A stretch of 54,291 nt of DNA from contig VXLY01000090.1 of NCBI GenBank assembly GCA_009841335.1, positions 1 to 54,291 on the forward strand, in the 5' to 3' direction. Position numbers and translations under genes: made by a program. Of the stretch, positions 15,212 to 54,014 are shown one piece after another. The notes beneath the pieces are model-generated. The model was given only the letters and a program-made list of their open reading frames with translations. It did not search any database and was not told the DNA's origin. Numbering within the stretch: position 1 is the stretch's first letter; each line of letters starts with the position of its first letter. The DNA is from Rhodothermaceae bacterium (GTDB lineage: Bacteria; Bacteroidota; Rhodothermia; Rhodothermales; Bin80).

Positions 15212-17359
15212 ATGAGACGTACGACGATCTTGCTTACTGTTGTGACTTTATGTAGCTGTACAACCTACCGAAATCCATCAAACACCGGCGATCCATATAC
15301 CGATTGGGCCGTCTACCTGGGGGACGCTACAAGTAGCCACTACAGTACTCTTGATCAGATCAATCGAAGTAATGTCGCTGACCTGACGTTGGCTTGGACC
15401 TATAAATCCGGTGATGCCGACAGCACAGGCCGTACTCAGATTCAGTGTAATCCAATTATTATAGATTCTACGTTGTATGCTACTTCACCTGGATTAAAAG
15501 CTATTGCCCTTGATGCCACCACCGGACGAGAAATATGGCGTTTTGACCCATTTGAAGCCGGAGCTGTAGATGAAGGACGCGGCATCAACCGAGGAGTAAG
15601 TTACTGGCGTGGTGATGATCAGCACGCGGCACGAATCCTCTATTCGGCAGGATCCAGGCTATTTGCATTGGATGCATCAACCGGAATACCGATCAACTCG
15701 TTTGGCGAAGAAGGATCTGTAGATTTGCGTGACGGTCTGGATCGCGACGTTGCGGGTTTATCCGTAACAGCACGAACACCGGGTATCATTCATAAGCATC
15801 TACTGATCCAAGGCACATCTATATCTGAGGGAATACGCTCTGCACCAGGCCATATTCGGGCTTACGATGTGCGCACAGGAGAGCTGGTATGGATCTTCCA
15901 TACAATCCCCCACCCTGGTGAATTTGGATATGAGACATGGCCTCCCAATGCATACTTGTACAGTGGGGGTGCCAACGCGTGGAGTGGATTGAGTCTGGAT
16001 GAAGAGCGTGGAACCGTCTTCCTTCCCACGGGATCGGCAGCTTTTGATTTTTGGGGCGGTAACCGTATTGGTGAAAACCTATTTGCCAATTCTGTACTTG
16101 CGCTTGACGCCATGACAGGTGAGCGCAAATGGCACTTTCAGATAGTGCATCATGATATTTGGGATCGTGATCTCCCAGCTGCCCCTAACCTTGTGACGGT
16201 AGAACGTGATGGTCGCCACATTGAAGCTGTCGCACAGGTCACAAAAAGCGGGCATGTATTTCTTCTTGACCGGGACACTGGAATTCCTCTTTTTCCTGTA
16301 GAAGAGCGCCCATTCCCGCCCTCAGATCTGGAGGGTGAACAAGCCTGGCCAACTCAACCGATCCCGCTGAAACCTCCCCCGTTTGCACGTCAGAAATTTG
16401 ATGAGGAAGATGTAACCAACATCTCACAGGAATCTCATGACTATGTGCTGGAGCGTCTCAGGCAAGTTCGTTCTGATGGCCAGTTCGTACCGCCTAGCAT
16501 ACAGGGGACTATCATTTACCCGGGATTTGACGGGGGAGCTGAATGGGGTGGTGCCGGCTACGATCCAACCACGGGTGTGCTGTATGTCAACAGTAACGAA
16601 ATGGCCTGGATTCTCACGATGGTCCCATTGAACCCGGATGGAGCAACGACAGGGAAAGGTCTATATGCCCGTTATTGTGCAGGCTGCCACGGAACTGGAC
16701 TGGAAGGTTCTCCAACCGGCGACATGCCAGCTTTGACTGGATTGGAATCCCGGATGACAAGAGATGCTGTGAGTGAACAGATTGCCCGGGGTATTGGCTT
16801 TATGCCATCCTTTGGTTTTCTTGAGTCAGGCGAGGTGTCTGCAATCGTAGACTTTCTTTTTGGAGAAGACGAGGAAACTTTAATTGAGCTGGAAGAAGAC
16901 GATGCCGAGCTAAGCGCATTTTTTGCAGGCTCCCCATATGGGCATACCGGATACAATAGATTTTTTGATCAGGACGGATACCCGGCGGTCAAACCTCCCT
17001 GGGGCACGCTAAATGCGATAAATCTGAATACCGGCACAATTGTCTGGACTGTGCCGCTGGGAGAATTCGCGGAATTGACGGCCCGGGGGGTCCCACAAAC
17101 TGGCACAGAAAACTACGGTGGACCTGTGGTTACTTCTGGTGGTCTGCTATTTATTGCGGCCAGTAAAGATGAGCGGTTTCGAGCCTTTGACAAGGAAAAT
17201 GGTGCCGTGCTATGGGAAACACAACTGCCAGCAGGTGGCTATGCGACGCCGGCCACTTACGAAGTTAGAGGAAAGCAGTACGTAGTTATCGCCGCAGGAG
17301 GAGGGAAAATGGGCACAAAATCGGGAGATGCTTACTTGGCATTTGCGCTGCCTGACTGA
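15212..17359 (+). CDS. PQQ-dependent dehydrogenase lipoprotein with internal cytochrome c domain
   Basis: A 715-residue quinoprotein. The N-terminus MRRTTILLTVVTLCSC is a lipoprotein signal. The eight-bladed PQQ propeller starts with DWAVYLGDATSSHYSTLDQI and contains family motifs such as PNLVTV, KSGHVFLLDRDTG, and near the end ENYGGPVVTSGGLLFIAAS and GGYATPATYEVRGKQYVVIAAGGG. A cytochrome c domain is inserted before the last blades: CAGCH at residues 489-493 and a likely Met ligand in GFMPSFGFL. This arrangement resembles glucose or alcohol quinoproteins that pass electrons internally from PQQ to haem. PQQ biosynthesis genes are not in the window. The substrate is probably a sugar or alcohol, and the lactonases upstream fit a lactone product. 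Confidence 0.9.
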   Translation: MRRTTILLTVVTLCSCTTYRNPSNTGDPYTDWAVYLGDATSSHYSTLDQINRSNVADLTLAWTYKSGDADSTGRTQIQCNPIIIDSTLYATSPGLKAIALDATTGREIWRFDPFEAGAVDEGRGINRGVSYWRGDDQHAARILYSAGSRLFALDASTGIPINSFGEEGSVDLRDGLDRDVAGLSVTARTPGIIHKHLLIQGTSISEGIRSAPGHIRAYDVRTGELVWIFHTIPHPGEFGYETWPPNAYLYSGGANAWSGLSLDEERGTVFLPTGSAAFDFWGGNRIGENLFANSVLALDAMTGERKWHFQIVHHDIWDRDLPAAPNLVTVERDGRHIEAVAQVTKSGHVFLLDRDTGIPLFPVEERPFPPSDLEGEQAWPTQPIPLKPPPFARQKFDEEDVTNISQESHDYVLERLRQVRSDGQFVPPSIQGTIIYPGFDGGAEWGGAGYDPTTGVLYVNSNEMAWILTMVPLNPDGATTGKGLYARYCAGCHGTGLEGSPTGDMPALTGLESRMTRDAVSEQIARGIGFMPSFGFLESGEVSAIVDFLFGEDEETLIELEEDDAELSAFFAGSPYGHTGYNRFFDQDGYPAVKPPWGTLNAINLNTGTIVWTVPLGEFAELTARGVPQTGTENYGGPVVTSGGLLFIAASKDERFRAFDKENGAVLWETQLPAGGYATPATYEVRGKQYVVIAAGGGKMGTKSGDAYLAFALPD

Positions 17360-35866: not shown

Positions 35867-36799
35867 ATGGTGTTAGAATGGGAGGGCATCCTTAGCTCCT
35901 GGGCACAGCCGCCGGGGACTGCAGAACAGCAGAGGTCCGAGAACACAGTTCGAGCAATCCGGAACGCTATAGACGGAAGTTCTCCACTTCGGGCGCGCAG
36001 GATAATGCCTTTTGTCCAAGGATCCTACCGAAATCGTGTCACAGTACGCCGAGATAGCGACGTGAACGTGGGTGTGATGTGCCACGATGCTTTCCTACCA
36101 CAATATCCGAGGGGGATGACTCATGCGGATTTTGGAAATACTGATTCGCAATACTCGTTCTCGCAGTTCAAGGATGAGCTAGAGAAGGCCCTTGTGTTGC
36201 ACTTCGGCCGTACGTCCGTTGCACGAGGAAACAAGTCCCTAACCGTTCGCGAGCATACGAATCGCGTCGAGGCAGATGTTACTCCATTCTTCGAATTCCG
36301 GGATTACGAGAATAAAACGCCTTACGTGCAATACGTGGCGGGAGTGGCTCTTTTTACCGATGGAGGCAAACGCATTGAGAATTACCCTGAGCAGCTCTTG
36401 CCTTATTGGCCTTCAATCCCACTTCACTACGAAAATGGAATAGCCAAGAATCGGGAAACATTACGCCGATTCAAGGGCGTCGTGCGGATTCTGAAGCGAT
36501 TACGCAACACCATAGCCGAAAGCGGTAACAATATGGTGCAATCCGTCCCGGGATACCTGATTGAGTGCCTGACTTGGAATGTGCCGAACCAAGAGTTTCT
36601 CAGAGATTCCCTCTGTGCCCGCGTGCAGGCTGTGCTGGCTTATGTCTGGAGTAACACACGGGAGGACTCGTTGTGCAATTCGTGGTGTGAAGTGGACAAT
36701 ACAAAGTACCTATTTCACTGGACGCAGCCGTGGACGCGCGAGGCCGCGCATGCTTTCGCTGATGCGGCATTGAGATACCTGGGAATGCAGACGCGATGA
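35867..36799 (+). CDS. CBASS CD-NTase (cGAS/DncV-like nucleotidyltransferase)
   Basis: A 310-residue nucleotidyltransferase of the CD-NTase family, which makes a cyclic oligonucleotide signal on phage infection. The active-site motif QGSYRNRVTVRRDSDVNVGV supplies Gly52-Ser53 and the metal-binding pair Asp63/Asp65. The third carboxylate is Asp137 in NRVEADVTP. A helical OAS-like C-terminal domain follows (FKGVVRILKRLRNTIAES to VPGYLIECLTWNVPN). The gene overlaps the Cap15-like effector gene by four bases (ATGA). There are no Cap2/Cap3 or HORMA/TRIP13 genes, so this is a minimal type I CBASS. The clade and the exact signal molecule cannot be told by eye. Confidence 0.9.
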   Translation: MVLEWEGILSSWAQPPGTAEQQRSENTVRAIRNAIDGSSPLRARRIMPFVQGSYRNRVTVRRDSDVNVGVMCHDAFLPQYPRGMTHADFGNTDSQYSFSQFKDELEKALVLHFGRTSVARGNKSLTVREHTNRVEADVTPFFEFRDYENKTPYVQYVAGVALFTDGGKRIENYPEQLLPYWPSIPLHYENGIAKNRETLRRFKGVVRILKRLRNTIAESGNNMVQSVPGYLIECLTWNVPNQEFLRDSLCARVQAVLAYVWSNTREDSLCNSWCEVDNTKYLFHWTQPWTREAAHAFADAALRYLGMQTR

Positions 36800-37446
36800 G
36801 ATTGGAACGTCTCCACATCAGCGTGTTTTTAGGAATAGCTATGCTAGTGTGGTTGTTACTTCTGGTTGTACAAGGCGAACAGGTGGGTTGGACATATTTG
36901 AAGCCTTTCGGCACGGTTGTTGGGCTCCTCGTGCTACTTGCCTGGCTTCTTGACAAGAAGCTTTGGAATCAGCCGTGGCTACACGGCTGGTTTGTGAAAC
37001 GTCCCGATTTGCAAGGTACTTGGCGGGTTGAGCTTCAGTCGGATGGGGTAGATGAAAATACCGGAAAACGCATGCCATTGATTGTTTGCTACATGGGAGT
37101 TGTGCAGAGTCTGTCGGATCTCGAAATGCATTTAATGACAAGAGAGTCACAGTCGTGGTCTATTGCCTATAGTATCAAAGCCTCGAGGAGCGGCAAGGGA
37201 TATCGGGTCGCAGCGGTGTATAGAAACGAACCCGACATATTTCTTCGTGGAGAGCGCAGTGAAATGCATTACGGGGGGGTGATTCTGGAAACTCACGGTG
37301 ACCAAGTTAGCCGGCCGAAGGTGTTGAGCGGCGAGTATTGGACTGATCGGAAGACAAAGGGGCAAATGAAGCTGGAATCAAGGATGCCGAAGCTATTCAC
37401 CAATTTCGACGACGCCGACCAAGCCTTTGAACCGACACGTGAATGA
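36796..37446 (+). CDS. cap15: Cap15-like CBASS effector, two membrane segments plus beta-barrel
   Basis: A 216-residue membrane protein. Two N-terminal membrane helices (ISVFLGIAMLVWLLLLVVQG and FGTVVGLLVLLAWLLD) are followed by a beta-rich soluble domain starting RPDLQGTWRVELQSD. It continues through MHLMTRESQSWSIAYSIK and GYRVAAVYRNEP to GGVILETHGD and LSGEYWTDRKTKGQMKL. This matches the Cap15 design, in which a STING-like small beta-barrel binds the cyclic nucleotide and the membrane part assembles to disrupt the inner membrane. Overlap with the CD-NTase start/stop indicates one operon. The assignment is from architecture and operon context rather than a search. Confidence 0.8.
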   Translation: MRLERLHISVFLGIAMLVWLLLLVVQGEQVGWTYLKPFGTVVGLLVLLAWLLDKKLWNQPWLHGWFVKRPDLQGTWRVELQSDGVDENTGKRMPLIVCYMGVVQSLSDLEMHLMTRESQSWSIAYSIKASRSGKGYRVAAVYRNEPDIFLRGERSEMHYGGVILETHGDQVSRPKVLSGEYWTDRKTKGQMKLESRMPKLFTNFDDADQAFEPTRE

Positions 37447-39400: not shown

Positions 39401-42400
39401 ATGACCAGGATATCTAGATTCCTCTCCGGCTTAATTGAGCGTCCTTGGGCACCTCTCCCGAGCGCTCAACTCCGTCCAGTCGGGCTTTATATAGGCAAAG
39501 GGCCTCTGGCCATGGAGGTAGCCGTTGCATTCGCACTGAAGAACTTGAGCGACGGAGAAATTAAGAAGACATGGAAAGCTCGAAAAGGCGGACGTGGCTC
39601 TCCGCTACTTCTAATCATTCTGCACTCAGATATAGCCTGTCTGTGTGGGGCTACAGGTGATGATCCATCCATCTATCGCGATCTGGATCCAGGGCTCGTC
39701 GAACGTCTGTGCCGTGAGTTGCTGGATCAACCTGACCGGCATTCTGCCCTTCGCCTTCTTGCTCAAACATTGTCCTCGTTCGACACAAGCCTACCCGGAC
39801 TCAGGAATGAAGGACTATTAGCTCTTCATGAATTGGAGTATGGTGTTCCCAAACGAACGGATTTAGGAAATGCCCGAAAAAAAGCACAGGCAGCCTTAAA
39901 TCTTCGGGGAGGTGACCTACTGAGGGCTCTGGGTTTTTCCATTGAACCACTAGACAGCCTTACAAGTGTACTGCGAAGCAATGACCGAAAAACGGCGCTC
40001 GCGGTAATGTTGCACGAAAACGAGTCGGTAGAGCAAAAAGAGCATCGGTTTAACCAGCTTTCTCCTGTCAGCTACGCATTCAGGAAAGCAGACAACGAAG
40101 ACCTAAAATGGATCATTTTTACCCAGAAGAATCGTATTCGCCTGTACGCAACAGATATTACTGTAGGCGTGGGTCGTCGTGGTCGCACAGAGACTTACAT
40201 TGAATGCCAGCCTTGGCTGCTTTCCGATGAGCAACTGCATTATCTCTGGCTCCTCTACTCCGCCGAGGCATTGATACCCGGCGGGAGTCTCCATCAGCTG
40301 CTGGACGGATCAACCCGATTTGCCGGTAATCTTGCCAAGGAACTTCGCGAGCGAATCTACGAGCATGTAGTTCCTGTTCTGGCCCAGGGAATCGTCCATG
40401 CGCGAGGAGGCGCATCAAATGTAGAAGATCTCGCCCTGACCTACGAAATGGCATTGACCGTGCTGTTTCGCCTCCTTTTTGTTGCCTATGCCGAAGACCG
40501 CGATCTACTTCCTTACCGACATAATGATGCATACCGGCGTAGATCCCTGAAAGAAAAGGCAAAGGAGCTCGCCAATGCGATTGCAAAGGATATTCCCATT
40601 GCGAAGGGAAGTACCCATTGGCGGGAGACCGTGGATCTCTGGGAAGCTGTGGCGAGGGGCAATACTGAGTGGGATGTGCCTGCATACGGTGGGGGGCTGT
40701 TCCTTGATGATGAATCAGTTTCAACAGCAGGCGCCGCGATATCAAGGATCACGCTGCCTAACGAATGCTTTGAGGTTGCTCTGCGTGATCTACTCGTGAT
40801 CAAGACTTCAGAAGGAATACCTGGGCCAGTTGACTTCCGCTCGCTGGGTGTGCGAGAGTTTGGCACCATCTACGAGGGACTATTGGACTCTGGAATAGCT
40901 AGGGCCGACATGGATCTGGTCTTAAAAAAGCAAAAAAAGGCAGAGGTGTACGTTCCGGCCAAGTCTGGGCAAAAACCGGCAGTATCGGCGGGGGAGGTCT
41001 ACCTGCACAATCGGTCGGGAGCACGCAAGTCATCTGGTAGCTACTACACAAAATCCTTTGCCGTTGAGCACCTCATTGGTGGATCACTTGAACCCGCACT
41101 CCGAGATCACTTTGCTCGGCTTGATGAATTGGATGAATCTGATGCCAGCGAGGCGTTCTTTGACTTTCGCGTTGCGGATGTTGCGATGGGGTCAGGACAT
41201 TTTCTGATCAGTGCTGTTGATCTGATGGAGAAGAAAATGGCGGACTATCTAGCTGATCGTCCCCTACCTGACGTGATGAATGAATTGGGAGCACTGCGCT
41301 CAATTGCAATGGATCGAATTCGTGGAACTCATGAACGGGACCCCATTGAAAACAGTCAACTGCTTCGACGTCTTATTGCGCGACGATGTATCTATGGCGT
41401 AGATCTCAATCCATTGGCCGTTCAGCTTGCAAGGCTTGCTGTGTGGATTCACACGTTCGTACCCGGGTTGCCTTTGTCCTTTCTTGACCGCACTTTAATC
41501 CAGGGTAACGCACTGGTGGGTATGGGGAGTATCGCAGAAATACGGATTGCATTCGCTAACCTCTCATCCCCACTTTACATTAATGCCAATAAATTGCTAG
41601 GTAGAGCAAAGAAGCCGCTTCGGCGCCTCGCCAACAACAATGATTCCTCTTTAGCGGATGTTGAGAAAGCGCGCAATGCGCAAGAAGATGTGCGGGTTGC
41701 ACTTCAAGACACGGAGATGCTGTTTGATCTTTTGACAGCTGCGCCGATTGGGGGCAACTCCGTAATCAAAGAGGTGCTTAACGAGTGGGAGAAGCTTTCG
41801 GATCCTCTCAACGTAGAAGATCCTGGGATACAGGAGGCGTTGAACTCTTCCTCTGAAGACTTGCAGCACCTCTCTGTTGTTCATTTTCCGATTGTCTTTC
41901 CAGAAGTATTTCTTCGAAAGCGTCCAGGTTTTGATGTAATTCTAGGTAACCCGCCATGGGAAAAGGTTAAGGTAGACGAAAATGCTTTCTGGGCGCGACA
42001 CTTTCCCGGATTACGTGGCAAGTCTCAGCGTGAGCAAGAAGTCCTAAAGGAGCGTCTACGCGAGGAACGACCTGATCTGATTACGCTCTATGAACGCGAA
42101 CTTGAAGAAACATACAACTTGCGAAAAGCGCTTGTGAGTGGGTCTTATCCTGGCATCGGCACGGGAGATCCAGACCTTTACAAAGCATTCTGCTGGCGCT
42201 TCTGGCGATTATCCAGAACATATGGTGGGGTCGTTGGTGTTGTGCTGCCACGAAGTGCAATTGCTGCCAAGGGTTCAGAAGACTTTCGCAAGGTAATGTT
42301 TGCCGAGGCAACTAATGTGGAAGTCATTACGCTGACTAATCGAGCGGGATGGATCTTTGACGAGGTCGAACATCGTTACACCATCGCCCTCCTATGCGCG

Positions 42401-43444
42401 CAACATGGGAAATCAGCAGAAGGTTCTATTTCTTTGCGGGGACCATTCACGTCATTAGCAAGCTTCAAGGAGGGGATAACCAATAAACCTGTCACCTTTA
42501 CCTTCAAAGAAGTCAAGAATTGGAACGATACCGTTTCACTCCCCCTTTTGCCAAGAGCGGATTCATCTCAGGTATTCGCTCAGCTTCGTAAGTTCCCTCG
42601 GCTTGATCTGAATGAATTGAACCAGTGGAGAGCACGCCCAGATAGGGAATTGGATGCTACCAATCAGAAACATCTCATGGACTTTGAGAAAGTAGATCAA
42701 CCCGAGGGATTCTGGCCGGTCTACAAGGGAGAGTCATTTGATCTATGGACACCAGATACGGGAACCTATTATGCCTGGGCTGACCCCAAACCCGCCATGG
42801 ATTATATCCAGTCAAAGAGATGGAGGGTAAGAAATACTCTCCGCAGTGCGCATTTTGAGTTTTCGCGACAATATCTGCAAGATCAAAGAACCCTACCCTG
42901 CTACCGTCCACGTATAGCTTTTCGAGATGTAACGAACAGGACGAATCAAAGGACCGTAATTCCCGCCCTCGTACCACCAAACGTGTTCATTACAAATAAG
43001 GGCCCCTATTTTCTTTGGCCTCGCGGAAATGAACAAGATCAGGCTTTTCTGCTGGGGATCCTTTCCTCACTTCCTCTTGACTGGTATGCACGTCGCTTTG
43101 TAGAAACGAATCTCAATTTTTTCATAATCAACCCGTTCCCCATTCCCCGTCCTTCCCGCGAGAGTGTCCTCTGGCAACGCGTGGTTGAGCTCGCTGGAAG
43201 ACTAGCATGTCCAGATGAGCGCTTTGCCGAATGGTCTCAAAAAGTGGACGTCGTCTGTGGGCCCATGGACGAAGCCAAAAAGGAAGATCACATTCATGAA
43301 CTTGATGCTGTCGTGTCCCACCTGTATGGACTCAGCGAATCACAACTCATCCACATCTTCGAAACCTTCCACGAAGGTTGGGACGTTGAGTCTAGACTTT
43401 CCAGCGTAATGCATTACTACCAGGCTTGGAGGACAAGACAATGA
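39401..43444 (+). CDS. Large Eco57I-type N6-adenine DNA methyltransferase
   Basis: A 1347-residue protein. Motif I is DVAMGSGHFL (residues 593-602) and the catalytic motif IV is NPPW (850-853, in VILGNPPWEKV), marking an N6-adenine methyltransferase of the Eco57I/type IIG/type ISP class. The adjacent YGVDLNPLAVQLARLAVWIHTF is the usual helix after motif I. A long helical N-terminal region precedes it, and the last 350 residues (FWPVYKGESFDLWTPD to INPFPIPRPS) look like a target-recognition region. I see no clear nuclease motif, so cleavage probably needs a partner. The PLD-helicase at 50.6 kb is the likely candidate. The stop overlaps the next start (ATGA). DrmMI of class 1 DISARM is a related type, but no DUF1998 gene is present. 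Confidence 0.88.
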   Translation: MTRISRFLSGLIERPWAPLPSAQLRPVGLYIGKGPLAMEVAVAFALKNLSDGEIKKTWKARKGGRGSPLLLIILHSDIACLCGATGDDPSIYRDLDPGLVERLCRELLDQPDRHSALRLLAQTLSSFDTSLPGLRNEGLLALHELEYGVPKRTDLGNARKKAQAALNLRGGDLLRALGFSIEPLDSLTSVLRSNDRKTALAVMLHENESVEQKEHRFNQLSPVSYAFRKADNEDLKWIIFTQKNRIRLYATDITVGVGRRGRTETYIECQPWLLSDEQLHYLWLLYSAEALIPGGSLHQLLDGSTRFAGNLAKELRERIYEHVVPVLAQGIVHARGGASNVEDLALTYEMALTVLFRLLFVAYAEDRDLLPYRHNDAYRRRSLKEKAKELANAIAKDIPIAKGSTHWRETVDLWEAVARGNTEWDVPAYGGGLFLDDESVSTAGAAISRITLPNECFEVALRDLLVIKTSEGIPGPVDFRSLGVREFGTIYEGLLDSGIARADMDLVLKKQKKAEVYVPAKSGQKPAVSAGEVYLHNRSGARKSSGSYYTKSFAVEHLIGGSLEPALRDHFARLDELDESDASEAFFDFRVADVAMGSGHFLISAVDLMEKKMADYLADRPLPDVMNELGALRSIAMDRIRGTHERDPIENSQLLRRLIARRCIYGVDLNPLAVQLARLAVWIHTFVPGLPLSFLDRTLIQGNALVGMGSIAEIRIAFANLSSPLYINANKLLGRAKKPLRRLANNNDSSLADVEKARNAQEDVRVALQDTEMLFDLLTAAPIGGNSVIKEVLNEWEKLSDPLNVEDPGIQEALNSSSEDLQHLSVVHFPIVFPEVFLRKRPGFDVILGNPPWEKVKVDENAFWARHFPGLRGKSQREQEVLKERLREERPDLITLYERELEETYNLRKALVSGSYPGIGTGDPDLYKAFCWRFWRLSRTYGGVVGVVLPRSAIAAKGSEDFRKVMFAEATNVEVITLTNRAGWIFDEVEHRYTIALLCAQHGKSAEGSISLRGPFTSLASFKEGITNKPVTFTFKEVKNWNDTVSLPLLPRADSSQVFAQLRKFPRLDLNELNQWRARPDRELDATNQKHLMDFEKVDQPEGFWPVYKGESFDLWTPDTGTYYAWADPKPAMDYIQSKRWRVRNTLRSAHFEFSRQYLQDQRTLPCYRPRIAFRDVTNRTNQRTVIPALVPPNVFITNKGPYFLWPRGNEQDQAFLLGILSSLPLDWYARRFVETNLNFFIINPFPIPRPSRESVLWQRVVELAGRLACPDERFAEWSQKVDVVCGPMDEAKKEDHIHELDAVVSHLYGLSESQLIHIFETFHEGWDVESRLSSVMHYYQAWRTRQ

Positions 43445-44092
43445 CACCGCGTGTCAGCGTGGAACCCGAACTCCTGCTGTGGGCATGCAAACGTGCCCAG
43501 GTAGACCTTGGAAAACTGCGCCATCGATTTCCGAAGTTAGACGATTGAGAAAACGATTCTCTGAAGCCAATACTCCGTCAGTTGCAGAATTTTGACGAAT
43601 TCACCCATGTTCCTGTCAGGCCCCTCTTCATGTCGACGCCGATAGTATAGGAAATGTCCATTCAGGATCTGCGCATATTGGGATATCAGAAGATTCTTCA
43701 AGCCATTGACAAGCTATTGAACAACATCTATATGTAAATGCAATGTCAGAACTGGTATCAAACCCTTGCATCAACTGAAGAAGACCTGCTCCGCCCTTTC
43801 AATCCGCTACACCTGCTAGCACGCCTGGCGTAATTCACCGACTATGTGATATTTGAGTACTACAACGCAATGAATTTATGGAGCAATATCAAAATGAGTT
43901 TAAACAGGTCAAACCAAAACGCAGAAGCGAAGGCAGAAATTATTACGCAACGCTGACGGCGCACGCTGGTCGGTGTTCCGGTGAAGCACTAATTAGCAGT
44001 ACTTTAAACGGAGAGCCATTGTTTGCCGGTGCATTTTGTTGATTACGGGTAATAAAACATCTACCTTAGATGCGTTTGCGCAGAACCTTTGA
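43441..44092 (+). pseudogene. Decayed XRE/ImmA-IrrE family gene
   Basis: The frame starts at an ATG overlapping the methyltransferase stop. It reads MTPRVSVEPELLLWACKRAQ and then HRFPKLDD, TGA, ENDSLKPILRQLQNFDEFTHVP, then TAG, SIQDLRIL, LLNNIYM, TAA and QCQNWY. This is colinear with family members that read PRVxVKPELLRWARERAG...RFPKLxxWExGxxxPTLKQLExFAxxTHxP...PDFR...Q(R)QxWY. The first TGA stands at the Trp position. Further on, in other frames, the family C-terminus reads EGRNYYATLTAHAGR, ISSTLNGEPLF and KTSTLDAFAQNL, stop at 44092. The middle, with the HExxH metallopeptidase site, is missing. It was probably an antitoxin or regulator coupled to the methyltransferase. Confidence 0.82.
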
Positions 44093-44110
44093 GAGAGGTA
44101 AGAGAAGGCA

Positions 44111-44206
44111 ATGTATCAGTTGGAGTCAAATACTTTCAATAGTGGCTCAATTTGTCTGGAATTGATGGCCCACTTGGTTGGAATATGCACCAGAGACGTT
44201 GGATGA
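44111..44206 (+). pseudogene. Possible scrap of DUF4411 (PIN-like) toxin gene
   Basis: Nineteen bases after the decayed ImmA/IrrE gene, ATG 44111 follows AGAGAAGGCA and begins MYQLESNTF, similar to the YLLDxNxFIxAKN start of DUF4411 toxins that often pair with such genes. Similarity ends there, and the frame stops after 31 codons. The rest, up to the Cap4-STAND gene at 44442, shows no gene I can support. The call rests on nine residues plus context, so it is weak. Confidence 0.3.
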
Positions 44207-44441
44207 AAATATGCGACTAATTTTGCGTTTCACTGCTAGAGCGCCTTACAAACTCGCAACTTCATAGTAATCAACGCCGTGAAGGTCATTGTATTGTTTT
44301 TATCAGGATTTGCGCTGCATAACGACCCGAAGAATGCTGGTATCGCTATCGCTGGAGTAATACGTTTCCCTAACCACGTGTGAACTTCAATGTACATTTC
44401 CTTAAAGATTAACCATTGAATTTCCCCCACATTGATCCTGG

Positions 44442-47400
44442 ATGTCAAACGAGTTTATAGAAAGCCACAAGCGTAGCCACGGTCGCCGAACTGGAGATAA
44501 GTACGAAGAGCTCCTCTTTGCGTATTGGTGCCTAAGGATGACAGTGGAGCCTGAAATACTTCGTGTGACGCACGAAGTACGTGGATTAGAGCCCGCTGAC
44601 GACGTTGTTGTAGAATATGACACAAGAATCAAGTGCTATCAGGCAAAGCATTCAACCGGTCTCCATTCGCTAATTAGCCTAAATGAATTGACGACCCCCC
44701 CAGTTACGGGCAAACCACCATTACTTAGCCGCCTCTCAAAAGTATGGGAAGGATTACGATCTAAAGGCAAGCAAGTTGAGCTTCATATCTATACAAACCG
44801 GGCGGCGGGACCAGATCTCGGGAGAATATTAGACGACGATCAAATTAAGGAAAGTGTTCTTGGCCATAAAGAACATGTCGCTTTACACACCCAGTTGGTA
44901 AACGCAGTGTCGCTAAGCTCCGCCGATGACATATCGGATTTCCTCCGAAGCTTACGGTTCAACCTTCGGCAACCAAACGTAGATGAGCTTAAGGATGAAA
45001 TTAAGAAGGATTGGCTAAGAGATCACCTTGGCTTAAAACCAGAAGAAGCATATGATCTCCTAATGGAGCATGTCGATAGATGGTTTCAAGAACCTAAGTC
45101 GCGTCCGATTAGACGTGAGGAGGTACTTGAAGCACTACAAATTGATCAAACCTCGCTTCTGCAACACTTCCCAGTTAACTGGAACACTTTTATTCCATGG
45201 CCAAATTTTGAAAAAGGAGTAATTAGAGCGTTGAATGAGACGGAGCAAGGATATACTGCGCTCATCGGACCACCTGGAAGTGGCAAGTCAACATTTATTA
45301 CCCAATTAATCAAAAGAATCCGGAAACAGCGAGTAAGAATTATTCGATATTATTGCTTTACGAGTGGGGACGATGTTAACTACTCGACTCGTTTGAGTCG
45401 AGGCGAATTCCTAAAATCCCTGATAGAACAGCTATATCTCGAGTGTAGCGAGTTGGAATCAAAAGGAGGTCAACGATATGAATATTCACCGGAAAAGCTC
45501 GCTACTCTCCTAACTTATGTCGGGAAGGTTCTAAAAGATCGGGGCAAATACTTGGTGTTTATAGTAGATGGAATTGATCACCTTGTTAGAAACAATCCCC
45601 ACGCTTCAGATGACATACTGAATATTTTCCCTCGTCAACTCCCAGAGGGTGTCATATGTCTTCTTGGATGCCAAGGGCCTCAGTATTTTCCCAACTTTAT
45701 AAGGCGTGAGTGTAAGGGCCAAAGAACATTTAACTTGCCTCCTTTCACTCTGTCGCAAACGCACAGCTACCTGTCGAAACATCTAAATAATCAGTCTCCG
45801 CACTGCTTAGCGGATGTGCTGCGGCCCATACATAGCAAGTGCAAGGGCTTGCCACTTTACCTACGTTACATGGCAAAGAGATTGCGCATGGACAGCGATC
45901 GAACGCCTAAAACGCTAGTTGATCAATTTCCAGAGTACGACGGAAACATCGAGAGTTACTATGCGACTTTGTGGGATGAGCTTGGCAATGATAGTAGCAT
46001 TCAGCAGCTTTGTGGATTAGCCGCGCAGCTTCGATTTTCTGTCAAGAAAGCGGATTTGATCGAAATGGCTGATGTCAGTGGCAACTTTGAAGGGGCTCGG
46101 CAATTCCGCAGGATAGAGCATCTGTTGCTGAGTAAGACTGATGGATATTCACTCTTCCATGAAAGTTTCCGGATTTTCGTTTCGAGGGAATTGGGCTCGG
46201 CAATTAAAAATGACCTTGACAGCAAAATTCTGCAGTACCTAAAGGATCGGATCTATAGTCAAACATGGTTTCAGCATGCCCATGAATATGCCGAGAAGTG
46301 TGGAGATGATGGATATTTGACGGAGAACTTCGGGTGGGCTTATGTAAACAGGGCTATTTCACACGGGCGCGAACCTGAAGAGATAGTTAAAGTGCTGAGG
46401 ACGGCCATTAGAGCAGCAACAAGAAGGCGAAATTTTGTTGCAGTTGCTGAGATATCGTTGTTGGTCGCCCACACAAGCAACCGCCTGGACTACCATTTGG
46501 ACAGGACGGACTTACTAAAAGCAATGACTCTTTTGGGTAATTCTGAGACAGTTCTGGGTGGAATTACTGGTGGTGGAGAGAATTTAAAACTGAACTATCA
46601 AAATGCTAGCCTATTGATATCAATGGCCAATTATGGGGATCTGGAGCGACGGCAGAGCATCGCTGATGATTTTATTGATCGTATGGATTTGTCGGCAATG
46701 CGTCAAGATTTATCTAATAAGGCAATTGAGTTGATAGCTATTTATCGGCCGGGAGACGTAGCGAAGCTAGTAAAGTTATTTGCAAGATTATCAGAAAACA
46801 ATAGAGATGCAGTTTTGAGAAGATTGTTGCGTCTCCTGTACGATAAGAGAAAGTTTGGGACAATTCGAACACTGAAAAAATGGCTGCAGTCTTTGAAAGA
46901 ATGGGCAGAGTTGAGTGGGGCTTGGTATTTCTGGATTGCGCAGAATGAGTACAGAATTCGAAGAGATACTTGCGTACATCACATCATAAAGGCAGGGCAA
47001 ACTACTCGGGATCCGTCTCAAAATGTATTACTAAGTGAGATGGTTTGGAAATTGAATGGTTATCGACAGCTTGCGACTTCTCTATTGGCTGGGTTGAATT
47101 CAAACAGGAAGGAAATCATTTCAATGGATGATTTAGTGGGTGGGTTGAATTTCGGTGCAATTAGAGCATATGTTCGAATGCTTCTATGTCTTGGTCGGGG
47201 GAAAGAAGTTGATGTTTTGGAGAAGTACACGAGTACCAAAGCTACGATGCAAACATTGTATGTTCGTACTAACATCAAGATAATCATAGCTCTAGAAAAT
47301 GATGGAAATGCAATAAAGAATGTCCTGGCTCAACTCACTTCTGAACGAAAAGAAGCCGTTGAGGAAAGCTCCGATGTTCGAATGGCAATACACCACGACC

Positions 47401-50400
47401 TGCCAGAATTATTGCACGATGTATTTTCCAAGTATAGTTCAAGCGGGGGAAATGTGAAGCAGTTTGCAGATGAACTCAGAAATAGGTATATCGGGGGCAG
47501 TATTCAAATTAGTAATTATGTGTTACTGAAAGCACTAAGTCATGTGAATGGCGCAAATTGGGAATTGAAATCATTTTTGAAGGATGAATACGAAATAATT
47601 ATTGATGATACTCTGGAAACCCAAGCGCGCACCAGCGAATTATTGGAACTTACTGAGCTTGCAGCAAAATCAGGATTTAGTGGATTAGCGAAAACATGGC
47701 TTCGAGAGGCCATTGGCGCGTCACGGGGGTATGGTTATCGGAAGGATGCAACATTAAGTCTACTTATAGATGCGTTGAAGGTCGCCATCAAGCGGGGAAT
47801 ATCTGATCCGCCTTCCAGGATAGCACAGATAGCTGACTGGAATTTGTTAGTTGCGAAGTTTACGGATGGAACGGAGACCAAGTGGTTTCCTCGTGCCCTT
47901 TACGATGTAGTTTTGAACTTCAATCACAATCTTGCACTGCAACTGCTAGTTGCTTACGACGAATACTTGCCGGCATGGCAGTTCCACGATGCAATAAAAC
48001 AGTTTATTGCTACTTGGGAGGAAGGGGCTACTGAGATTGCATACCTCTGTACTGAATTAATTGGTGAGCATTCATGGGAGAATCCCTACGCAAATAAGTT
48101 CAAGGCTAGAATTTCCTTGCTGGAGCGTGTGACGAAAAAAGATCCAGAAAATGCTGATTGGATCGCTAAGCAGATTCAGGTTTTTCTACTAACAGAAGTG
48201 CCTCCAGATATACGCAGCCCGTTTATTGAGGAGTTCAATAAAGTTGCAGAGAAATCCAATCTGCGCAAGATTGAAGATGCATCAGTTTATACAAGGGCGG
48301 ATTTAGAGACTTCAAGTTTTACATTGGATTCAACGTTTGTAATCGGTGACAAGGAAATTACGATGGCGGAATTGCCGGAACATCTGTCACAGTCAATTGA
48401 GGTTTTTACTAGCTGCGTCCATTCTCTCGAGGCAGAGAAAAAGACCTACGAATATAGAGAAGAAATCTCTGATGCCATAGGGAGATTATTAAACCAGGCA
48501 AGTAAAAAATCCGATGTGAAAAAGCTATACGAATTCGTTCGAGCGAACGAAGAGATTGAGTCAACTAGTAGGTTATTGATTGCACGGGCACTTTTGAATT
48601 GGGGTGACACCGATCGAGCAAAGAGTCTGTGCAAAAATGTATTCTATGATGATAATAAATATGGTACATGGAACCCTGACGTAGAATCATTTGAATTACT
48701 GGCAGGTCTTGATCATGAGTATGCAATTGAAGTACTTTTGTCATTCGTGGAGCAACGCATCCAGGAATATGCCTGGGTAGGGAATGGAATATACCTTTTG
48801 TTTACTAGGGCTTTAGATCGGTTGGGGGACGAATATACCGATACAATCCATGAGCTGTACTCGTCATATAGTCGATTTATTGAACACCAATTTGAAAGTC
48901 TAGAAACTGATGTCCCAAGTCCTTACCAATGGGTGAGGGACAATCCGCAGAGTAGAGCAGATTTCGAGACCACCGTCCTGAAGTTTGTTGCAACGGAGTG
49001 GGAAACGCCGGCATTATATCGCCGTGAGTCTCTTATGAACCTTGTATACAAGGTCGCTCTGCGCCAATCAAAATTAATCATACCCTGGCTCATAGGTCTT
49101 CTAGAAAAAAATAACCGTACGGTGTCTGAGCAGGCAGCCGTTGTTTTACATTCAATTGCGTTGAGGAATCCACAGCTGTTGGGAGATTACTGGAATGAAC
49201 TGGTGTCTCACGTAGAAAAGCCTCACTTTACGCAAGTAACTCATATTTTAGGCTGCCTGGAGAATTTGGAATTGGCACCTGACGTAAAGGAATCAATACG
49301 GCAAACACTTAGGCGTATCAGGCCTACCATTTTGCCAGATCCAGTGATGATTTCTGGAGGAAGCCTACGACCGTCACCTACATTCAGAGGACTAGCTTGG
49401 GTAAGAACGGTGCCCGAGGTAGTAAAGGAGACTGTTAAAAACGTTGCCATGACGTTAGAAATGGATTTGAATGAGATTCAATGGCGAATTGAACGTGAAA
49501 TGAAGGATATGGGATATGATGAAGAATGCTCAAATCAGAAGTGGCAGCTTTACCGAGACGAGTTCACCAATCATGGATTAAAAACGTGGATCCCTTTTGA
49601 ATCATACGATTCTCATTTTGTGTGGCATGCGCTAAACAGGATCGTCGAACAAAGAGTACGTGCATCATCAATGGATTTGACATCTCTTACAGGCACAATC
49701 GGGCTGTATGATCCAGTGAACCTTATAGTGCATGAAAAGCCGCGACCTATAGATATAAGCGTTCCGCACGTTGATGAATCCCAGTTGAGGGACGTACCCA
49801 ATAGCATTGAAGCGTGGGTGAGTTTTCAAGATGAGCCAGCTATCAAAAGGACCATCCTCGCAAATGAGTGGGTGAGCATAGTTGACGAATACGACGTATC
49901 GGCTGGTTGTGCTTCGGAAAGATGCAATAGGTATCCATTCCTTGCGTCCAAAGTGATTAGTGATATAATCCTACACCAGCGTTACTCTCCCGAACCAAAC
50001 GAGTGTGTAGTACAAATCGGACATAAGCCTCCCCACTTCACGATGACAAGACATACAGCTAAGGAACTGCTCAATCGAAGTTATGATAGAATTAATAATA
50101 TGCAAGTAAGGCCCGTGCCCCTTGTAGCTAAGCATTATGGCTGGCTATGGTCCCGGAGTCAGATGCACACGAGTATAGCCGGACGGTGGATCCGACAATA
50201 TGACTTACAATGGAAAAGCACTGAAAGTCTGGATTTGTGTCGAAATGGACATGTTGTTCAGCGTTTTTTTGAATGGAAGGATGGAGCCAAGGCAGATCCT
50301 TATACTTACCACCCTGTTGGCAGTGGCGCACGCCTAAGTGTTAGATCTGATTTTTTGGAAAGAATAATGGACGCTTACAACTTGAGACTCATAATTGTAA

Positions 50401-50459
50401 GCGATCGAACGCGCCGACTCAACTCTCGTATGGGTCTAACCTCGGAGTCGCCTAAGTAA
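44442..50459 (+). CDS. Cap4-like nuclease fused to STAND NTPase, Avs-like, 2005 residues
   Basis: A 2005-residue three-part protein. Residues about 10-200 resemble the Cap4/DUF4297 restriction-like nuclease: GDKYEELLFAYWCLR, then Glu45, Asp53-Asp54 and Gln67-Ala-Lys69-His (PD-(D/E)xK style). Next is a STAND-type NTPase: Walker A GPPGSGKS (276-283) and Walker B LVFIVDGIDHL (371-381), where the DGxDH form is typical of STAND ATPases, then a winged-helix-like part (DGYSLFHESFRIFV). The remaining 1300 residues are helical repeats of TPR/HEAT character, a common phage-protein sensor layout. Size and order match Avs proteins. Bases are visibly AT-richer than in flanking genes, suggesting separate acquisition. 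The phage trigger is unknown. Confidence 0.82.
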   Translation: MSNEFIESHKRSHGRRTGDKYEELLFAYWCLRMTVEPEILRVTHEVRGLEPADDVVVEYDTRIKCYQAKHSTGLHSLISLNELTTPPVTGKPPLLSRLSKVWEGLRSKGKQVELHIYTNRAAGPDLGRILDDDQIKESVLGHKEHVALHTQLVNAVSLSSADDISDFLRSLRFNLRQPNVDELKDEIKKDWLRDHLGLKPEEAYDLLMEHVDRWFQEPKSRPIRREEVLEALQIDQTSLLQHFPVNWNTFIPWPNFEKGVIRALNETEQGYTALIGPPGSGKSTFITQLIKRIRKQRVRIIRYYCFTSGDDVNYSTRLSRGEFLKSLIEQLYLECSELESKGGQRYEYSPEKLATLLTYVGKVLKDRGKYLVFIVDGIDHLVRNNPHASDDILNIFPRQLPEGVICLLGCQGPQYFPNFIRRECKGQRTFNLPPFTLSQTHSYLSKHLNNQSPHCLADVLRPIHSKCKGLPLYLRYMAKRLRMDSDRTPKTLVDQFPEYDGNIESYYATLWDELGNDSSIQQLCGLAAQLRFSVKKADLIEMADVSGNFEGARQFRRIEHLLLSKTDGYSLFHESFRIFVSRELGSAIKNDLDSKILQYLKDRIYSQTWFQHAHEYAEKCGDDGYLTENFGWAYVNRAISHGREPEEIVKVLRTAIRAATRRRNFVAVAEISLLVAHTSNRLDYHLDRTDLLKAMTLLGNSETVLGGITGGGENLKLNYQNASLLISMANYGDLERRQSIADDFIDRMDLSAMRQDLSNKAIELIAIYRPGDVAKLVKLFARLSENNRDAVLRRLLRLLYDKRKFGTIRTLKKWLQSLKEWAELSGAWYFWIAQNEYRIRRDTCVHHIIKAGQTTRDPSQNVLLSEMVWKLNGYRQLATSLLAGLNSNRKEIISMDDLVGGLNFGAIRAYVRMLLCLGRGKEVDVLEKYTSTKATMQTLYVRTNIKIIIALENDGNAIKNVLAQLTSERKEAVEESSDVRMAIHHDLPELLHDVFSKYSSSGGNVKQFADELRNRYIGGSIQISNYVLLKALSHVNGANWELKSFLKDEYEIIIDDTLETQARTSELLELTELAAKSGFSGLAKTWLREAIGASRGYGYRKDATLSLLIDALKVAIKRGISDPPSRIAQIADWNLLVAKFTDGTETKWFPRALYDVVLNFNHNLALQLLVAYDEYLPAWQFHDAIKQFIATWEEGATEIAYLCTELIGEHSWENPYANKFKARISLLERVTKKDPENADWIAKQIQVFLLTEVPPDIRSPFIEEFNKVAEKSNLRKIEDASVYTRADLETSSFTLDSTFVIGDKEITMAELPEHLSQSIEVFTSCVHSLEAEKKTYEYREEISDAIGRLLNQASKKSDVKKLYEFVRANEEIESTSRLLIARALLNWGDTDRAKSLCKNVFYDDNKYGTWNPDVESFELLAGLDHEYAIEVLLSFVEQRIQEYAWVGNGIYLLFTRALDRLGDEYTDTIHELYSSYSRFIEHQFESLETDVPSPYQWVRDNPQSRADFETTVLKFVATEWETPALYRRESLMNLVYKVALRQSKLIIPWLIGLLEKNNRTVSEQAAVVLHSIALRNPQLLGDYWNELVSHVEKPHFTQVTHILGCLENLELAPDVKESIRQTLRRIRPTILPDPVMISGGSLRPSPTFRGLAWVRTVPEVVKETVKNVAMTLEMDLNEIQWRIEREMKDMGYDEECSNQKWQLYRDEFTNHGLKTWIPFESYDSHFVWHALNRIVEQRVRASSMDLTSLTGTIGLYDPVNLIVHEKPRPIDISVPHVDESQLRDVPNSIEAWVSFQDEPAIKRTILANEWVSIVDEYDVSAGCASERCNRYPFLASKVISDIILHQRYSPEPNECVVQIGHKPPHFTMTRHTAKELLNRSYDRINNMQVRPVPLVAKHYGWLWSRSQMHTSIAGRWIRQYDLQWKSTESLDLCRNGHVVQRFFEWKDGAKADPYTYHPVGSGARLSVRSDFLERIMDAYNLRLIIVSDRTRRLNSRMGLTSESPK

Positions 50460-50636
50460 TAAAAAAAGAAGACGGTGCAGATTGTAGAAGTAAATGAAAA
50501 CTAGTTTAGGTCTGATAAAGCGATTAAAGGATATCACACGGTTCAAATAAGGTGTACAAAATAATTGAGATTTAATGCTTAGCGTCCCACGGCCGGCTAC
50601 GCCAAGAAAAAGCCCGGATTGCATAAAAAACCAATA

Positions 50637-53600
50637 ATGGATACAGTTCCCACCCTAATTGATAACCAGAATGGGAACACGCTGGCTCAAGCGCTGGCTG
50701 AGACTCTGACAAAGAGTGATTCCAGACAAGAAACTCATAGCTCATCCGTCAGGGAACTGCGTATAGCGACGGCTTTTTTCAGTCCAGCAGGATTCAAATA
50801 CATTGCTGATCACCTGAAAGATATTTCAGATGTGCGTCTCCTGCTTGGAGCTGATCCCGGTGGTCTTCCGATCCCTGACTCCAAGCGACTGGATGAAACA
50901 CCTGCTGATCGTGAACACCGACGTATCAGTACAGCATGGGAAAACCAGGTAAAAACTCTCACACATGAGCGTGATCAATTGCCGTTTAACCGGACCAGCC
51001 GCGCAGCGCTGGAAGCATTGATCATAGCCCTTCGCCATGGTAACATGCAGGTGCGACGATATACCAAGTCCTTTCTGCATGCCAAAGCCTACATCCATGG
51101 CTCTCACACAGATGGAGGGATCATTACCGGTTCGTCAAACCTTACACGGGCTGGTCTTACGCAAAACCTTGAATTGAATCTGGGCTGCTTCAATCCCCCC
51201 ATTGTTCGTGAAGCCAGACGGTGGTTTGATGATCTCTGGGACGATGCATCACCATATGATCTGGCTGAAATCTATGAAGTAGTTTTTGAATCACGCTCTC
51301 CCTGGAGCATTTTCGTTCGGGTGCTCTGGCAACTCTACCACAGCGAGATTGGAGAAGAAATCCAAGAGGAAGACAACCTTCCCCTTACAACTTTTCAGAA
51401 GCATGGCGTCGCTCGTGCGCTTAGGCTGATCCGAGAACGGGGAGGTGCGATTGTAGCAGATGAGGTCGGTCTTGGAAAAACGTTTATCGCCGGGGAGATT
51501 CTGCAAATTTATAGTGATCGTCGCCAGCGCGCACTATTGGTCTGCCCTGCTGCATTACGTGACAGCACATGGAGGCAATTTCTAAATGAATACGGAGTGT
51601 CTCGTGCCATAGAGTGCGTATCCTTTGAACAGTTAGCAGGCGACCGGCAATTGTTCGACAAACAGCATCCCAACGCAAAAAAAAGACACTTGAAGCGTTC
51701 GCTGGATGAATACCAACTTATCATAGTTGACGAAGCGCACAACTACCGCAATCCCACTGCGCCCACCCGGGCAGCAGTGTTGCGTCGCCTTCTATTTGGC
51801 AAAAAAAGGGACTTGCTTCTTCTTACGGCAACCCCTGTTAACAACTCCCTCTGGGATCTATACCATCTCATTCACTTTTTCCTGCGACAAGATGCCCATC
51901 TGGCTGATCGGGGAGTACTTTCAATCCGACAGCGTTTCGTCCGAGCCATGCGGACCAACCCCACTGACCTCAACCCGGATGTACTCTATCCGATTATTGA
52001 CGCGACCACGGTCAAGCGGACCCGCCAGTTTGTGAAAAAACACTATTCCGGTGACACTATCAAGGGGCCAGACGGAAAGCCCAGGGCCATCATATTTCCC
52101 AAACCCAAAGCGATTACCGTTCGCTACGCACTGGAAGATCAATTGCCTGGATTCTTCGACCAACTTGAAGAATCACTGGATTCCGATGGGGATAGAAATA
52201 TTCTGTTCGCCCGCTACATGCCGGAAGCGTACCGGATAGAATCGCTGGATCAGGATGAGACACGCCACGCGCGAGCCATGACTGGACTCCTGCGGTCAGG
52301 GCTACTGAAACGATTTGAATCTTCCTGTTTTGCCTTTAGAGAAACGATTCAAAAAATGATCCTGCAACATGACCATTTTCTCCAAGCTCTCGAAATGGGA
52401 CATGTTGTAACCACGGCTTTCCTACAGGATATTTCAGGCGATGATGAAAGTCTATTTGAGTACCTATTAGAAAAGCATTCCGAAAACATTGCTGATGCCA
52501 GGTGTTTCGACATTACTCGCCTGAAAAACGACGTGGTACGCGATCGGGATCTCCTGCAGAGTCTAGAAGATTCTGCAACCTCTATCTCTAACGAAAGCGA
52601 TGCCAAGCTAAAAGCATTGTCGGATGTGCTCGTCAAAATCGCCGCACAGGCGGAATATGAGGCATCCGACTACATTGACGAAACGCAGAAACGAAAGGTA
52701 TTGATCTTTTCTTCCTTTGCAGATTCCGTTAAATGGATCTGGGATTTCCTCAAACAGGAGCTTGAAAAGCGCCCCGAACTTGCGCCATACCGAGGTCGGC
52801 TTACAGCTGTGAGCGGGTCGCATACCTTTGGCGGAGTTTCCAAGGATGATGCCGTTCTGGGATTTGCTCCCGTCTCCATGCAGGCGGGCCCGGGTGCAGA
52901 TGAAGATCAATATGACATCATGGTCACCACAGATATCTTGGCCGAGGGTGTCAACCTGCAGCAGTGTCGACACATCATCAACTACGATGTACCATGGAAT
53001 CCGATGCGGCTGGTACAGCGACACGGCCGTATCGACCGAATCAATAGTCCCCACAGGCGGGTATTCCTACGGACCATCTTCCCCGCCGACCGGCTTGATG
53101 AATTACTGAACTTGGAAACGCGAATTTTAGGGAAGCTGTCCATGGCAGCAGCCAGTGTAGGCGTTATAGCTCCGCTGGAAAAGGGGGCGCACGGCGATCA
53201 GGTGTTTACAGAAACACGCCAGGAAATCGAAAAACTGCTCTTGGAAGACGCGTCTCTCTTTGAACTTGGAGGAACGGTGGCAGCTACTCAGACGGGCGAA
53301 GAATATCGGCAAACTCTCCGGAAAGCCTATCAGGATCTGGGCAGGAATATTGCCATGCTGCCGTGGAAGGCTGGCTCGGGCATGAGAAGAGGTAAGCAAC
53401 GCGGCCTGTTTTTCTGTGCTGTCGTGGGACATGATACCGATTATGAGCGCACATACCTACGCTTCATCCCGGCAACCCCTGAATGGGAACCAACCAGTGA
53501 AAAGAACTCCATCATTCATGAACTTGGAACATGCCTGCGCATGATTGAATGTGAGGAAGAAACCCCAACTTGGATCCCGGATGGGATTCATGAGCGGGTG

Positions 53601-54014
53601 TACGATTTCTGGGATATTGCACAGACCAATATCTTCGATCATTGGATGCGCGAGACGGACCCGGCTAATTTGCAACCAAAAGTTGGTCGCATCAATCATC
53701 AAGTGGCTGAATTTATTCGTGCGTATCCTCCAAGAGAAGTAAGTTCAAGTGATACAAAGGATGCTCTCGATATTCTAGAATCCCCTTGGCCGCGCCGAGA
53801 GCAAATCATGCTAAGCGGCTGGTTTAAGTCCGCAAATGACCAGGACCAACCAATAGATCAAGATCTCTCACGCGATCTTGTGAATAACATCTTGGAAACG
53901 GGCTTGGAAGCAAGCGAGCCTCCCCTACCCCTTCCACTCATAGAAAAAGACGATGTCAAGCTTCTTTGCTGGATGGCTATAGAATGCGAGAAAGATGACG
54001 GTGCAAAGATGTAA
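50637..54014 (+). CDS. PLD-nuclease / SNF2-family helicase
   Basis: A protein of about 1125 residues from ATG 50637 (an in-frame TTG at 50619 is the alternative). The N-terminal 200 residues form a phospholipase-D-type nuclease domain: His148-Ala-Lys150 in SFLHAKAYIHG and GSSN (165-168) in ITGSSNLTRAGL. Then a superfamily 2 SNF2-type helicase: motif I DEVGLGKT (275-282), motif II DEAH (365-368), motif III LLLTATPVNN, motif V TDILAEGVNLQQ and motif VI QRHGRIDR (794-801). The long C-terminus is unassigned. One PLD motif suggests dimerisation for cleavage, as in BfiI and NgoAVII-like enzymes. It is probably the ATP-dependent translocase/nuclease partner of the methyltransferase at 39.4 kb. Confidence 0.87.
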   Translation: MDTVPTLIDNQNGNTLAQALAETLTKSDSRQETHSSSVRELRIATAFFSPAGFKYIADHLKDISDVRLLLGADPGGLPIPDSKRLDETPADREHRRISTAWENQVKTLTHERDQLPFNRTSRAALEALIIALRHGNMQVRRYTKSFLHAKAYIHGSHTDGGIITGSSNLTRAGLTQNLELNLGCFNPPIVREARRWFDDLWDDASPYDLAEIYEVVFESRSPWSIFVRVLWQLYHSEIGEEIQEEDNLPLTTFQKHGVARALRLIRERGGAIVADEVGLGKTFIAGEILQIYSDRRQRALLVCPAALRDSTWRQFLNEYGVSRAIECVSFEQLAGDRQLFDKQHPNAKKRHLKRSLDEYQLIIVDEAHNYRNPTAPTRAAVLRRLLFGKKRDLLLLTATPVNNSLWDLYHLIHFFLRQDAHLADRGVLSIRQRFVRAMRTNPTDLNPDVLYPIIDATTVKRTRQFVKKHYSGDTIKGPDGKPRAIIFPKPKAITVRYALEDQLPGFFDQLEESLDSDGDRNILFARYMPEAYRIESLDQDETRHARAMTGLLRSGLLKRFESSCFAFRETIQKMILQHDHFLQALEMGHVVTTAFLQDISGDDESLFEYLLEKHSENIADARCFDITRLKNDVVRDRDLLQSLEDSATSISNESDAKLKALSDVLVKIAAQAEYEASDYIDETQKRKVLIFSSFADSVKWIWDFLKQELEKRPELAPYRGRLTAVSGSHTFGGVSKDDAVLGFAPVSMQAGPGADEDQYDIMVTTDILAEGVNLQQCRHIINYDVPWNPMRLVQRHGRIDRINSPHRRVFLRTIFPADRLDELLNLETRILGKLSMAAASVGVIAPLEKGAHGDQVFTETRQEIEKLLLEDASLFELGGTVAATQTGEEYRQTLRKAYQDLGRNIAMLPWKAGSGMRRGKQRGLFFCAVVGHDTDYERTYLRFIPATPEWEPTSEKNSIIHELGTCLRMIECEEETPTWIPDGIHERVYDFWDIAQTNIFDHWMRETDPANLQPKVGRINHQVAEFIRAYPPREVSSSDTKDALDILESPWPRREQIMLSGWFKSANDQDQPIDQDLSRDLVNNILETGLEASEPPLPLPLIEKDDVKLLCWMAIECEKDDGAKM

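Follow-up and report, generated by a model that had tools for sequence, protein, structure and literature searches.

The large terminase subunit is reported to be sensed by Avs1-3 and the portal by Avs4 (PMC12724215), and JADA is what Avs5 senses (PMC12931631). Avs1 is activated by expression of terminase, its fused effector being switched on by oligomerisation (PMC12799240). A further nuclease-armed protein, bNACHT25, senses through host DnaJ (PMC12169576). The Salmonella Avs3 bound to the PhiV-1 terminase (PDB 8dgc) resembles the protein described here in its nuclease-STAND-solenoid order and in its length of about 2000 aa. Avs1b (AVAST type 1) carries an N-terminal trypsin-like protease and has Avs1a as its partner nuclease, whereas our protein begins with a Cap4-type nuclease, similar in fold and active site to CBASS Cap4 (7yia/7yib), LmuA and HerA-DUF4297. 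The triggers of these three nucleases are cyclic nucleotides acting via SAVED for CBASS Cap4, SMC partners for LmuA and HerA for HerA-DUF4297. To our knowledge, none of them is built into such an NTPase-sensor chain.

The window, i.e., the whole stretch of 54,291 nucleotides that was analysed, covers positions 1-54,291 of the forward strand of contig VXLY01000090.1 (Rhodothermaceae bacterium, assembly GCA_009841335.1). It encodes a 2005-aa protein that is predicted, from sequence comparison and structural models, to be an intact, highly divergent Avs3-like sensor-nuclease. The reading frame is intact, and an in-frame TGA three codons upstream of the ATG places the start at or after 44442. Its G+C content (0.439) is lower than that of the window (0.487) and of the neighbouring genes (about 0.50), as would be expected of acquired DNA. 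A Cap4-type nuclease (residues 1-245) is followed by a STAND NTPase with winged helix (246 to about 700) and a long C-terminal region. Such a single chain of effector, STAND NTPase and long repeat sensor at the C-terminus is the arrangement of Avs/AVAST systems in the broad sense. A preliminary description had proposed a real 2005-residue frame, a Cap4/DUF4297-like nuclease, a STAND NTPase with both Walker motifs and a full sensor-effector architecture, and all of these hold. The features are collected in the table.

Table. Features of the nuclease-STAND-sensor gene and of its neighbours (positions in the window; residues of the 2005-aa protein)
Feature	Position	Strand	Basis
Whole gene, 2005-aa nuclease-STAND-sensor protein	44442..50459	+	Intact ORF
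Cap4-type PD-(D/E)xK nuclease domain, residues 1-245	44442..45176	+	PADLOC matches; model against Cap4
Nuclease active-site motif D53-D54 ... Q67-x-K69	44598..44648	+	Conservation in 37-row alignment
STAND NTPase, including helical and winged-helix segments, residues 246-699	45177..46538	+	Avs1b model of PADLOC, matching in the NTPase alone (2.8e-43)
Walker A, GPPGSGKST, residues 276-284	45267..45293	+	Conserved in alignment
Walker B, LVFIVDGIDH, residues 371-380	45552..45581	+	D376, G377, D379, H380 invariant
Helical sensor solenoid (predicted), residues about 700-1765	46539..49736	+	AlphaFold2 model of 806-2005; match to Avs3 8dgc
Conserved sensor core, residues 1042-1188, with YGYRKD (1097-1102) and TDGTET (1141-1146)	47565..48005	+	hmmsearch i-E 1.3e-14
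Mixed alpha/beta C-terminal domain (predicted), residues about 1766-2005	49737..50456	+	Model, partly low confidence; collinear hhalign alignment of group Z as far as residue 1980
CBASS cyclase (CD-NTase)	35867-36799		PADLOC cyclase PDLC00801, E 6e-105
Cap15-type 2TM effector of the CBASS pair	36796-37446		PF18153 1.9e-15; PDLC00694 1.3e-63
Type IIG restriction-modification enzyme, upstream of the STAND gene	39401-43444		REase_MTase_IIG, E 8.8e-292
PLD nuclease-Snf2 helicase fusion, further candidate defence gene	50619-54014		C3a139, E 4e-57; PLDc_2 and SNF2

The STAND gene sits in a defence island. The stretch of about 1 kb between the IIG enzyme and the STAND gene (43445-44441) contains no ORF of at least 100 aa, and no Avs3b-like partner ORF was seen beside the gene in the ORF list. 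Scanning 29 genomes with the Avs3b model PDLC02168 returned nothing. Several relatives of the protein adjoin Dsr1, a retron with PtuA, or AbiE genes.

Taken alone, the nuclease domain matched the PADLOC models of Cap4/SAVED effectors and LmuA with E-values of 3e-17, 2e-16 and 7e-12, the best CBASS match being SAVED_PDDEXK (3e-17) and the last value belonging to LmuA. A 37-row alignment shows no variation at D53, D54 and K69 and almost none at Q67, in answer to the earlier question of whether the nuclease residues are conserved. An AlphaFold2 model of residues 1-705 (mean pLDDT 83) superposes its nuclease on Cap4 7yia with Z 18.5 and an rmsd of 2.8 over 208 residues. Affiliation with CBASS Cap4 itself was rejected: in place of the SAVED ligand-binding domain, a STAND NTPase follows residue 245. 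The nuclease scores 60 bits with CBASS Cap4 models and at most 43 bits with the nucleases of STAND relatives, values from different models that are not strictly comparable, and this difference hints at an effector swap. The N-terminal nuclease is also shared (E 2.9e-9) with PDB 9n00, a 1523-aa protein entered as 'AAA family ATPase', for which no paper was found.

Besides the two Walker motifs, the NTPase contains a GxP motif at residues 469-471 and a winged helix, and the best structural matches of its model are the plant NB-ARC domains NRC1/NRC2 (Z 19.7). Its best PADLOC match is Avs1b, with an E-value of 2.8e-43 that reflects homology limited to the NTPase. Searching for the conserved NTPase motif yielded at least 80 loci in 84,980 species genomes, and 2 viral contigs. 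The relatives listed come from Pseudomonadota, Bacteroidota, Bacillota, Actinomycetota, Chloroflexota, other phyla and archaea, and the highest NTPase identity to any of them among the matches listed is 26%. Close full-length relatives were found neither by peptide patterns in the 84,980 species genomes nor in viral contigs, phages or class genomes (one weak fragment, in genome G005), and a plasmid search with the sensor (E 0.1) gave no close full-length relative.

Individual relatives show some further features. G009, a species from the genus in which our protein occurs, encodes a 2125-aa relative (L014, 4364-10741) on a branch other than that of our protein, namely group X; the genus thus holds at least two such lineages. 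The G005 fragment, also from this genus, lies at a contig end (L018, 6139-6462) and matches sensor residues 732-847 weakly (E 2e-7, 32% identity); it contains two stop codons and may be a decayed copy. A Moraxella plasmid relative (L009, 6938-9184) breaks off after 748 aa, with an IS3 transposase immediately following, and has apparently been cut by the insertion; the same locus has a 254-aa ORF resembling the sensor core (15326-16090, minus strand). More broadly, loci L039-L120 represent a widespread nuclease-STAND-sensor superfamily of bacteria and archaea, and those members that were scanned match PADLOC mainly via the Avs1b NTPase or nuclease/effector models.

Placing the NTPase in a tree, as the preliminary description had proposed, was done with 51 NTPases including two true Avs1b proteins (L125 and L126; 3243 and 2759 bits to PDLC02159). 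Avs1b groups with relatives of groups Z and W, and the 2005-aa protein with groups X and Y, the two sides being separated by a branch with 100/96 support. Its exact position among X and Y is weak (80/54) and its branch is long. Judged by these sequences, the protein is a lone deep branch. The unnamed families X, Y, Z and W (L039-L120) have the nuclease active site, the NTPase and the sensor core in common with it, but differ in their NTPase sequence (identity at most 26% among the matches listed) and do not clearly share residues 700-1041.

Homology of the sensor was assessed with profiles of the relatives, grouped by the NTPase tree and built without the 2005-aa protein. Four of the five group profiles found the sensor by hmmsearch (shortY 4.7e-16, X 3e-13, bactY 5e-11, W 5e-9), whereas none of 2000 shuffled sensors scored. 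The alignment of group Z to it spans 830 columns between residues 1056 and 1980, with an hhalign E-value of 1.2e-10, compared with 0.07 or worse for shuffles. The sensors of most relative groups are homologous to each other, and homology to the Avs1b sensor is undetectable. Hence, on sequence grounds, the sensor core is homologous to that of a large nuclease-STAND protein family not named by PADLOC. In contrast, residues 700-1041 have no clear hhalign match in any relative group.

The region was also modelled, again following the preliminary description. The AlphaFold2 model of residues 806-2005 has a mean pLDDT of 68 and draws on an alignment only 11-15% identical to the query, which limits the detail in which the fold can be read. 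Its top Foldseek match is nevertheless Avs3 bound to terminase (8dgc; E 6.2e-12, TM 0.48), with the other matches listed at TM 0.07-0.14, and 8dgc is also the top match for residues 1-705 (E 6.5e-20), so that both halves of the protein lead to Avs3. With VIA-align, residues 902-2005 of the sensor superpose collinearly on 933-2065 of 8dgc (Z 18.1, 862 residues); the next best match has Z 11.9. Since Z-values of 10-13 often arise by chance among helical repeats, the gap in Z and the length of the match weigh more than Z alone. The predicted sensor fold is thus that of the Avs3 terminase-binding solenoid. The earlier statement that the sensor bears no familiar signature is wrong on both counts, by homology of its core and by predicted fold. 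The expected 1300 or so residues of helical repeats were right in length for the C-terminal region, but in the model the solenoid ends near residue 1765, and the last 240 or so residues form a mixed alpha/beta domain.

Fold and sequence thus give different answers as to whether this is a characterised Avs family with the same sensor. By predicted fold the sensor is that of Avs3. PADLOC models of Avs2-Avs5 gave no match, those of Avs3 none up to E 10, and the 8dgc sequence was not among the matches listed up to E 10 for the family profiles; judged by these comparisons, the protein would lie outside Avs3 at the sequence level. NCBIfam NF041812 was discarded as an Avs3 model, being class_D_Cupria. 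Avs2 was rejected in view of the missing PADLOC match and a sensor unrelated to Avs2 sequences. Avs1b was rejected as well, as only the NTPase aligns, the sensors lack detectable similarity and the tree splits the two. By these comparisons, the protein belongs to no named Avs family checked.

We consider it probable, at roughly two chances in three, that the protein is a single-chain anti-phage sensor-effector working like Avs3, with the large terminase as its most likely trigger. At rest, the NTPase and the long solenoid would keep the Cap4-type nuclease inactive. Upon infection, a phage protein, most likely the large terminase subunit, would dock in the solenoid, after which the NTPase would take up ATP and oligomerise. 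The clustered nucleases could then cut DNA, and the infected cell would die or phage growth stop (abortive infection). We infer this chain of events, from trigger through oligomerisation and cleavage to protection, from the sensing of terminase by Avs1-3 and the oligomerisation by which STAND sensors activate their effectors. A common solenoid fold does not prove the identity of the ligand, however; bNACHT25, likewise armed with a nuclease, works through DnaJ. There is a considerable, if smaller, chance that the same machine answers to another trigger, its divergent solenoid reading a portal, a capsid protein, an early phage protein or a protein of the host that infection perturbs. The unmatched segment 700-1041 would fit such a reading, as would the portal, JADA and DnaJ routes of Avs4, Avs5 and bNACHT25 (PMC12724215, PMC12931631, PMC12169576), but Avs3, a terminase sensor, leads the fold matches and is alone in standing out. 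We are doubtful of, yet would not dismiss, the more far-reaching proposal of a separate undescribed Avs type, in which an Avs3-like solenoid with the unique 700-1041 segment would bind a non-terminase phage ligand and represent the large unnamed nuclease-STAND superfamily across bacteria and archaea.

The Avs1b match of the NTPase might also suggest an Avs1b protein whose protease was exchanged for a Cap4 nuclease. This origin appears very improbable: the true Avs1b proteins have the NTPase alone in common with ours, their sensor matches no group, they lie across the 100/96 branch, and no MBL-nuclease partner occurs among the neighbouring genes scanned. A role other than phage defence, such as plasmid exclusion or regulation, is improbable too; STAND proteins do include regulators such as MalT, itself a match of the NTPase model, but the intact DNase residues and the flanking defence genes fit defence better.

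The suggestion of a possibly new Avs-like branch thus stands insofar as the protein lies outside the named families by sequence; what is new is a divergent lineage and not a sensor of unknown type. The architecture of the Avs3 sensor apparently reaches well past the named Avs families, to proteins that have little sequence in common with them and are missed by the defence-annotation models now in use. Should terminase prove to be the trigger here too, a single mode of recognition would have been kept through extreme divergence; if it is not, the same scaffold would have been retargeted.
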